Source: Methanoregula sp. (GTDB taxonomy: Archaea; Halobacteriota; Methanomicrobia; Methanomicrobiales; Methanospirillaceae). Taken from it: 32,388 nucleotides of DNA. The DNA lies in assembly GCA_026394605.1 (NCBI GenBank), contig JAPKXY010000060.1, positions 1 through 32,388 on the forward strand. Direction: 5' to 3'. The notes under the pieces were generated by a model. It saw only the letters and a program-made list of their open reading frames with translations, did not search any database and was not told the origin of the DNA. Numbering within the stretch: position 1 is the first letter of the stretch; each line of letters begins with the position of its first letter. A program made the position numbers and the translations under genes. Shown piece after piece: positions 9,411 to 11,519 of the stretch.

Positions 9411-9431
9411 TTCGGCAGTTGAATGGATAGT

Positions 9432-9836
9432 ATGAAAGACGGGTTACTCACTGAACGGCAGATGGAGGTGTTGAGGTATCGCAAACAGGGGCTGACCCAG
9501 CAGCAGATTGCCGATATCATTGCCACATCGAAGGCAAATGTATGCACCATCGAGAAATCTGCGATGGAGAATATCCGAAGGGCAAAAGAGACGCTGGACT
9601 TCCTTTACACCCTCGACTCCACACATCTCTGTACGATTCCATCAGGAACTGATCTATTTGACGTTCCATCGATGATCTTTTCAGAAGCCGAAAAACTCAG
9701 CATCAAGGTCAAATACGATACCATTTCCTTAATTAACCACCTGCGGGAATCGAAACCGAAAAGCTATACGGCACGCGCCCTCTCAGAAAATGTTGAAGCA
9801 TACATTACCAATGAAGGTGAAATCTACTTCGGCTGA
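9432..9836 (+). CDS. tfx: Tfx-family DNA-binding protein
   Basis: The 134-aa protein begins MKDGLLTERQMEVLRYR and continues GLTQQQIADIIATSKANVC, a helix-turn-helix of the sigma-70 region 4/LuxR kind at residues 5-55, then IEKSAMENIRRAKETL. This is the layout of Tfx, first described in Methanothermobacter as a protein binding near the fmdECB (molybdenum formylmethanofuran dehydrogenase) promoter. The C-terminal half (about 60-134) is the conserved Tfx effector-like domain of unknown ligand. ATG 9432 fits the family N-terminus and the TATA spacing; ATG 9423 would add three residues. It is divergent from mtd, so regulating mtd or itself is a reasonable inference, not shown. It is followed by a gene-free stretch of about 670 bases. 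Confidence 0.88.
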   Translation: MKDGLLTERQMEVLRYRKQGLTQQQIADIIATSKANVCTIEKSAMENIRRAKETLDFLYTLDSTHLCTIPSGTDLFDVPSMIFSEAEKLSIKVKYDTISLINHLRESKPKSYTARALSENVEAYITNEGEIYFG

Positions 9837-9930: not shown

Positions 9931-9938
9931 GTTTATAT
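9931..9938 (+). promoter_or_regulatory. TATA box ahead of the candidate structured RNA
   Basis: GTTTATAT is a strong archaeal TATA match. Initiation about 25 bases on (near 9956-9960) coincides with the 5' strand of the terminal helix of the candidate RNA. It is the last clear TATA box before the ribosomal operon that begins at 10506. Confidence 0.6.
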
Positions 9939-9955: not shown

Positions 9956-10220
9956 TTAAGGAAGCCGATATGAGGGTATCCCATGGATGAGTACGGGGAA
10001 ATTTCCTGAAAGGAACCCCCGATCGCTCCAGATGGCGGCCATAATGCTCCTGACACAGGATGCCGGTCTGCCGTGGGTCGTCCTCGATTGGTGACCCCTG
10101 TCCGTATAAGGTGGGCAGGGGCTCCCGAGAAGGAGTTGTGATCCGTCACAACGGGCTGACAGAGTAGGATCTGACGATAACGCATGGGTGGAACGTCTGT
10201 GCGACGTGCCTGTTCCTTGG
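9956..10220 (+). ncRNA. Candidate structured RNA (about 265 nt) or operon leader
   Basis: The two ends pair: TTAAGGAA (9956-9963) with TTCCTTGG (10213-10220). A second long-range helix is nested inside: CCCATG (9980-9985) with CATGGG (10183-10188). Local hairpins fill the interior: CGGGG/CCCCG with inner TTCC/GGAA (9994-10021), TCCTG/CAGGA (10048-10060), GGGTC/GACCC (10075-10097) or the alternative CCCCTG/CAGGGG (10095-10121), CTCC/GGAG (10122-10135), GTTGTGA/TCACAAC with loop TCCG (10135-10152), and ACGTC/GACGT (10193-10207). No convincing ORF covers it. I see no 5S, RNase P (no GAGGAAAGTCC or ACAGAA elements) or SRP domain IV motif. A TATA box sits 25 bases upstream. It could be an independent RNA or the 5' leader of the ribosomal operon. 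Confidence 0.45.
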
Positions 10221-10505
10221 AGTGCTAAAAAAAAGCAGTCTCAGGATGCGTTGCGGTCAGGATCTTCTTTCGCGAGACAGGAACGCCGGAGCACACCGGC
10301 AGCGCTGCGGGTATCTTCATCATCAGGCACCGGGGATCTCGTCTGACAAACAGCGACATCACGTGCACTGATATAGCAGGAAGCGATCGCCCGTATTCGC
10401 GTGTTGGCTTCTGTAATGAGCGTACCAGTCTCTTTCATCTCGGAATAATCGCATGTCGTATCGAATTGAGACAAACCTACACGCAGAAGAAGGATTGATG
10501 AATAC
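10221..10505. other. Gene-free stretch before L3
   Basis: It begins with TGCT-A7-AGCA, whose A8 tract (10227-10234) reads as a T-run on the minus strand. No good TATA box is visible before L3. GGATTGATGA at about 10490-10499 could serve as the L3 ribosome binding region. A 65-codon minus-strand frame (10241-10438) is open here, but I could not support it as a gene. Confidence 0.4.
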
Positions 10506-11519
10506 ATGCCAAAGATAAACAGACCACGCAGGGGTTCGCTTGCATACAGCCCGAGAACGCGTGCAAAGAGCCCGATCCCGAAATACCAGTCGTGGCCTAT
10601 GTACCAGGGGGCACCGGTATTGCAGGGTTTTGCCGGGTATAAAGTAGGTATGACACACGTCATCATGGTGGACGATCACAAGGACAGTCCCACCGAGGGT
10701 AAAGAGATCATGGTGCCGGTGACGGTTATCGAGGTACCGGCAATGAAGGTCGCTGCCATCCGTGCCTATACACGGGACACCTACGGCAAACATGCCCTGA
10801 CCGAAGTCTGGGCAGACCAGCTCGACAGCGTGCTCGCGCGGCGCATCACCATGCCCAAGGACTATAATCCGGAAACGGCAAAAAAGGCAATTTCAGATGC
10901 AATCGCCGCAGGCAATGTCGCTGAACTCTATGCCCTCATGTATACCCAACCGGTCACCCTCTCCGGTGTGCCCAAGAAGGTCCCCGACCTGATGGAGATC
11001 AGAGTCGCGGGGGGGCCCATCGACAAGCAGTTCGAATTTATCATGGGGCTGCTGGGAAAAGAGGTCAACCTGACAAATGTGATCCATTCAGGTTCCTATG
11101 CAGATATCACTGCAATCACAACGGGAAAGGGAACGCAGGGTGCGGTCAAGCGCTGGGGGCTCAGTCTGCGCAAGCGGAAACACTCCCGCGGCGGGAAAGA
11201 ACGTCATGTCGGAACGCTCGGTCCATGGAACCCACACCACGTCCGCTGGCAGGTTCCGCAGATCGGACAGCTGGGGTTCCAGCAGCGTACAGAGTTCAAT
11301 AAGCGGATCCTTAAGGTCGGCGAGAACGGAAATGAGGTTACGCCAGCAGGCGGCTTCCTGCATTATGGAAAGATGAACAGCCCGTATGTGCTGGTCAAGG
11401 GATCCATCCCGGGCCCGGTCAAGAGGCTGGTGCGCATCCGTCCGGCTATCCGGCAAGGTGAACACGTTGTGAGAATACCCACGATCCAGTTCGTGAGTGT
11501 AGAGAGCAAGCAGGGATGA
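10506..11519 (+). CDS. rpl3: 50S ribosomal protein L3 (uL3)
   Basis: uL3 is an early 23S-binding protein near the peptidyl-transferase centre. The 337-aa archaeal form begins [17 protein letters not shown], as in other archaea, and contains the conserved core [35 protein letters not shown] and [11 protein letters not shown]. The length is normal for archaea, which carry insertions relative to the bacterial protein of about 210 aa. It is the first gene of the long ribosomal operon, with six bases between its stop and the L4 start. No clear TATA box lies in the 280 bases upstream, so transcription may start at the promoter at 9931. Confidence 0.98.

Follow-up and report, generated by a model that had tools for sequence, protein, structure and literature searches.

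Closest described systems

In Escherichia coli, the leader of the S10 operon is bound by L4. This operon is homologous to the one studied here and includes L3 and L4; the likeness drawn is one of operon. In archaea, where to our knowledge few cis-regulatory RNAs are known, the autoregulation of L1 provides a further precedent, since in Methanococcus its site lies inside the L1 coding region. It shares with the present case a ribosomal-protein control element in archaeal coding sequence, but operon and ligand are different and the L1 element sits in the gene of its own ligand. The closest relative is the L4-Archaeoglobi ribosomal-protein leader (RF03135), published for Archaeoglobi with 85 positions (Eckert and Weinberg, 2020; PMC7247131), and the available main text of that report makes no mention of the motif within a coding sequence. 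Finally, the family PF02598 (COG2106) comprises SPOUT RNA methyltransferases with an OB-fold insert (PMC1829167).

The leader described below belongs to a known family but is larger than the form described; its core is embedded in relatives in a protein-coding gene that has since been lost here. Like RF03135 of Archaeoglobi, it precedes an L3-L4 operon and its core is similar in sequence and helices (41.2 bits), whereas it belongs to Methanomicrobiales, measures 319 nt and adds a long stem (D1), two hairpins (D2 and Pa) and a conserved tail. With respect to the PF02598 gene, its OB-fold coding region and the leader core have homologous DNA, but here there is no intact reading frame and the protein is absent. 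Neither the element in Methanomicrobiales nor RF03135 in a coding sequence had an earlier report in the main texts of the papers searched.

The locus upstream of rpl3

The DNA analysed, hereafter the window, is a whole stretch of 32,388 nt from Methanoregula sp. (contig JAPKXY010000060.1). Genes tfx (9423-9836) and rpl3 (from 10506) are separated by a gap of 669 nt, in which the ORF list contains no + strand ORF of at least 60 aa. ORFs read as rpl4, rpl23, rpl2 and rps19 follow rpl3, giving the L3/L4/L23/L2 operon, and in protein searches the window's rpl3 product shared 87-88% identity with its counterparts in Methanoregula sp. and in uncultured relatives, as befits a Methanoregula-like genome (Methanoregulaceae, Methanomicrobiales).

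The initial annotation had singled out positions 9956-10220 as a strongly folded segment, and this was reproduced: its MFE was -106.2 against a mean of -93.96 (sd 5.2, z -2.35) for 200 dinucleotide shuffles, of which 4 were as good, and several local hairpins were present in the MFE structure. The TATA box reported upstream (TTTATAT, 9932-9938) lies about 25 nt before the segment and is also kept in related leaders; judging from the sequence, the transcript would start near 9957-9960. In agreement with the reading by eye that the segment is none of 5S, SRP or RNase P RNA, Rfam gave no such match in it, and the RNase P RNA of this genome is on another contig.

The Rfam search yielded instead a family match, RF03135 at 10171-10260, and thus spoke against a new RNA. 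The right border of the segment was wrong because position 10220 splits this known element in two; the conserved element extends to 10278. Neither of the two long-range helices put forward survived as such. The pairing of the ends, TTAAGGAA/TTCCTTGG, is seen in the lone MFE structure but is unconserved, its 3' arm falling within the variable last hairpin of RF03135. Regarding the nested helix CCCATG/CATGGG, CATGGG (10184-10189) belongs to an RF03135 helix, and the partner of CCCATG is CGTGGG (~10072-10077), as part of the longer stem D1. The idea of a new stand-alone RNA, against which the initial annotation had itself named a hit to a known family, is therefore unsupported, since the segment matches RF03135 and the proposed pairings are not the conserved ones. 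The other suggestion, a leader of the L3 operon, was borne out by the family inside it, by covariation, by conservation and by its constant place 5' of rpl3; the tfx-rpl3 gaps of relatives share conserved pieces with compensatory changes, and from the position of the leader we infer that it autoregulates the operon.

A further stretch just 5' of rpl3 (10398-10505) is kept among Methanoregula relatives and is not kept in Methanolinea-type leaders. In it, CGCGTGTTGGC (10398-10408) is a possible pairing partner of ACCTACACGCA (10475-10485), after which comes the ribosome-site-like AGGATTGATGA.

Anatomy of the leader

Positions 9960-10278 form a compound rpl3-operon leader of 319 nt, consisting of a long stem, two hairpins, of which the first is variable and the second conserved, and RF03135. 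Its features and surroundings, 5' to 3', are:

9932..9938, + strand: TATA box TTTATAT, promoter of the leader, read from the sequence and kept in the family alignment
9960..9985, + strand: 5' arm of stem D1, GGAAGCCGATATGAGGGTATCCCATG, pairing with 10072-10098 (partner-swap test)
10072..10098, + strand: 3' arm of stem D1, CCGTGGGTCGTCCTCGATTGGTGACCC, pairing with 9960-9985 (partner-swap test)
10093..10123, + strand: hairpin D2, free in sequence with its pairing kept (partner-swap test)
10123..10278, + strand: whole conserved core, model R1 (match of 118.9 bits)
10135..10152, + strand: hairpin Pa, GTTGTGA-tccg-TCACAAC (46-sequence alignment)
10171..10260, + strand: RF03135 (L4-Archaeoglobi) ribosomal-protein leader (Rfam, 41.2 bits, gathering score 34.5)
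10261..10278, + strand: tail on the 3' side, GATCTTCTTTCGCGAGAC, conserved and with homology to the PF02598 codons for (V)RIxSR (alignments)
10506..11519, + strand: rpl3, first gene of the operon, 3' of the leader (ORF; relatives by protein search)

The RF03135 match spans the full model (1-85). R1 is a covariance model of the core that has the window sequence among its 46 building sequences. No usable consensus was obtained when RNAalifold was applied to a MAFFT alignment of the entire 5' domain, and for this reason D1 and D2 were studied by swapping arms between leaders. In 23 diverse leaders the D1 arms paired with their own partners at -22.9 kcal/mol against a mean of -19.9 kcal/mol, and in 27 leaders the own pairing of D2 reached -14.3 against -9.7 kcal/mol; in both cases 0 of 5000 permutations were as good, results that are strong and not exact because the partner-swap test, like the column-shuffle test, ignores relatedness. 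In Pa, which is almost invariant, six pairs are standard in all 46 sequences, and one of the pairs changes from U-A to G-C in 5 of them. For the core, the covariation score of the 46-sequence alignment A2, in which two core helices are poorly aligned, was 0.209, compared with 0.136 when shuffled and at most 0.137 when slid, and 34 columns are invariant across these 46 divergent leaders. Two further candidates were dropped: the family alignment had hinted at a helix AGAAGG/UCUUCU enclosing the core, but its pairing is disrupted in wider relatives, and a conserved small peptide in the leader was rejected as no reading frame is kept.

Distribution in Methanomicrobiales

R1 was found in 205 of the 232 Methanomicrobiales genomes and in 132 of the 135 of high quality; the RF03135 model alone gave fewer matches (27/61 relatives). 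The core is 5' of rpl3 and on the same strand in every related locus whose gap was read. One draft genome (G224) has two R1 matches, on contigs C65 and C67 (L223 and L224); since one copy sits at a contig end, this duplication is likely an assembly effect.

In the order, PF02598 is absent from 228 of the 232 genomes and present in four, each of them also with R1. The window's genome (91.7% complete) gave no PF02598 match, and the window's leader contains no intact PF02598 reading frame.

RF03135 inside the PF02598 gene in relatives

Outside Methanomicrobiales, RF03135 lay within the PF02598 coding sequence in all 49 loci opened (30 from Halobacteria and 19 from other families of the phylum). 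Both intact Methanomicrobiales copies tested also hold it there, which makes 51 of 51 loci, all in the same codon phase. The PF02598 gene is immediately 5' of rpl3, on the same strand and at -7 to +101 nt from it. In a sample of 296 evenly drawn genomes of the phylum, for which co-occurrence was determined by comparing genome lists, RF03135 was present outside the order in 136 of the 142 genomes with PF02598 and in none without it. In Haloferax volcanii, the searches for RF03135 and PF02598 both match.

These data bear on whether the leader could be an independent small RNA, transcribed from the 9932 promoter and ending short of rpl3. Such an RNA would account for a conserved promoter of its own, a compact folded unit of ~320 nt and persistence without the gene, but the place before rpl3 is fixed, in relatives the element is part of the mRNA of a gene that directly adjoins rpl3, and neither a terminator nor a second promoter was identified, in a search that was not rigorous. 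We consider this explanation quite unlikely and keep that of a cis-acting leader.

The in-frame location in all 51 gene-bearing loci checked could also mean that RF03135 is a conserved protein-coding stretch mistaken for an RNA family, and its authors graded the motif as borderline (PMC7247131, main text as available). The RF03135 stretch folded better than synonymous shuffles that preserve protein and codon usage, with a mean z of -3.21 in 12 Halobacteria and of -3.22 in 21 others, while other windows of the same genes ranged from +0.3 to -2.7 and from +0.1 to -1.8, respectively. The two intact Methanomicrobiales copies gave weaker values (-1.3 and -1.7). The loci were picked by a structure-aware model, a selection bias which should be small because 96% of the PF02598 genomes outside the order qualify. 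Among five PF02598 genes without an RF03135 match (L218-L222, from families f18, f23 and f27 of the phylum sample), three had no folding signal at the element and one (L218) had it; in the fifth (L222) the anchor was misplaced in the folding scan. The RNA may have been lost from the signal-less genes or may never have been present in them. In Halobacteria, windows 180 nt on either side of the element also had z values of about -2.4 to -2.7 (-2.7 at -180), which points to additional structure or to an effect of composition.

In addition, in Halobacteria (L148-L177) a TGSxSxGSGS linker encodes a hairpin at the place of D2, ~60-90 nt 5' of the RF03135 match. In 13 distinct sequences this hairpin showed compensatory changes, with 6 double changes against an average of 1.2 and a maximum of 5 in 1000 shuffles. 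According to Rfam 15, R-scape has contributed another three covarying pairs to RF03135 (PMC11701678). Together with the synonymous-shuffle result, the mostly missing folding signal in genes without the match, and the persistence of conservation and covariation where the protein has been lost, these added pairs make a mistaken coding stretch extremely improbable, and RF03135 is treated in what follows as an RNA element.

Probable loss of the gene in Methanomicrobiales

The four PF02598-bearing Methanomicrobiales occupy separate places on the L3 tree, with at least four state changes overall; the tree was built quickly and several of its branches are weak, and the number of changes cannot separate gain from loss. 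In the intact copies, the Pa hairpin typical of the order is encoded as an insertion in the protein and, because of this, loss of PF02598 is more likely than its later gain. The 5' arm of D1 is here located in the untranslated leader, where, read by eye, it appears to pair with coding sequence 5' of the core, while D2 already forms part of the coding sequence.

Traces of the protein were sought in the gene-less leaders with a profile built solely from PF02598 genes outside Methanomicrobiales. Ten translated frames, all on the + strand, matched the OB fold at E<=1e-3, and none did in reversed controls. The best one (leader L049) reads YREGVVIRHNKADRVGSDYNAWVDV, with an E of 1.5e-6; the window's own leader is not among the ten frames at this threshold. 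The gene-less leaders keep no frame, since the distance between two conserved coding anchors modulo 3 is distributed as 34/25/13.

With protein fossils detectable and the gene intact in four relatives, the leader might be regarded as a decaying PF02598 pseudogene without present function, its structure being a remnant of coding conservation. The leaders, however, have kept the 34 invariant columns through their divergence, the element persists in nearly all high-quality genomes (132/135), and compensatory changes occur in D1, D2 and the core although no frame is kept. Neutral decay would erase such conservation and covariation, and a pseudogene is thus disfavoured and, in our opinion, very improbable. 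The same RNA fold lies inside coding sequence in relatives; the lineage of the window has lost the gene and retained the fold.

Proposed function and ligand

We conclude, with a probability of about 0.7, that 9960-10278 is a cis-acting autoregulatory ribosomal-protein leader of the rpl3 operon, an extended RF03135 that was once nested in coding sequence and has outlived the gene. The structure and origin of the leader are well supported: computation shows that its promoter is conserved, that its stems covary, that it occurs across the order and that it is homologous to the PF02598 OB-fold coding region. Promoter position and synteny are both consistent with its being part of the rpl3 mRNA. As to its action, excess ribosomal protein of the operon would bind the core and so lower expression of the rpl3 operon, possibly with D1 and the sequence ahead of the start codon relaying the signal to transcription elongation or to translation start. 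The protein could be uL4, which in the available main text of the source paper is a guess from bacterial precedent (PMC7247131), or uL3, the product of the operon's first gene, or a further protein of the operon. Autogenous control by an operon protein is most likely, given the position at the L3-L4 operon and the precedent of other ribosomal-protein leaders.

Local alignments of the leader to the 23S rRNA of close relatives were no better than those of shuffles, so that no rRNA mimicry in sequence backs a ribosomal-protein ligand. One likeness, between UCGCGAGACAGG (10270-10281) and UCGUGAGACAGG (~2625-2636 of a same-genus 23S, L141, near the start of domain VI), was rejected because by our own estimate chance alone should yield about one match of this kind and the local alignments do not surpass those of shuffles. 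This lack of detectable rRNA similarity, as well as an assignment to uL4 that in the literature comes from bacterial precedent, would fit a leader sensing something other than a ribosomal protein, such as a metabolite, temperature or another RNA-binding protein. Against this, the element accompanies the L3-L4 operon at all loci examined across the phylum, as in other ribosomal-protein leaders, and we judge a different signal unlikely, with control by a ribosomal protein of the operon as the favoured reading.

On a wider scale, it is quite probable that a ribosomal-protein leader has been selected inside an unrelated methyltransferase gene across Halobacteriota, constraining the protein, in which insertions such as TGSxSxGSGS (Halobacteria) and LSHNGMID (Methanomicrobiales) encode hairpins, and that it was kept free-standing after loss of the gene, probably several times within Methanomicrobiales.

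These results change the picture of RF03135, which is phylum-wide and, in the relatives examined, coding-embedded, and not just a leader of Archaeoglobi. As 228 of 232 Methanomicrobiales genomes lack the gene and most keep the element, the methyltransferase is ruled out as a necessary ligand here. The leader of the rpl3 operon is conserved throughout the order and its history can be read, as that of an RNA element which was nested in coding sequence and has survived the loss of the gene.
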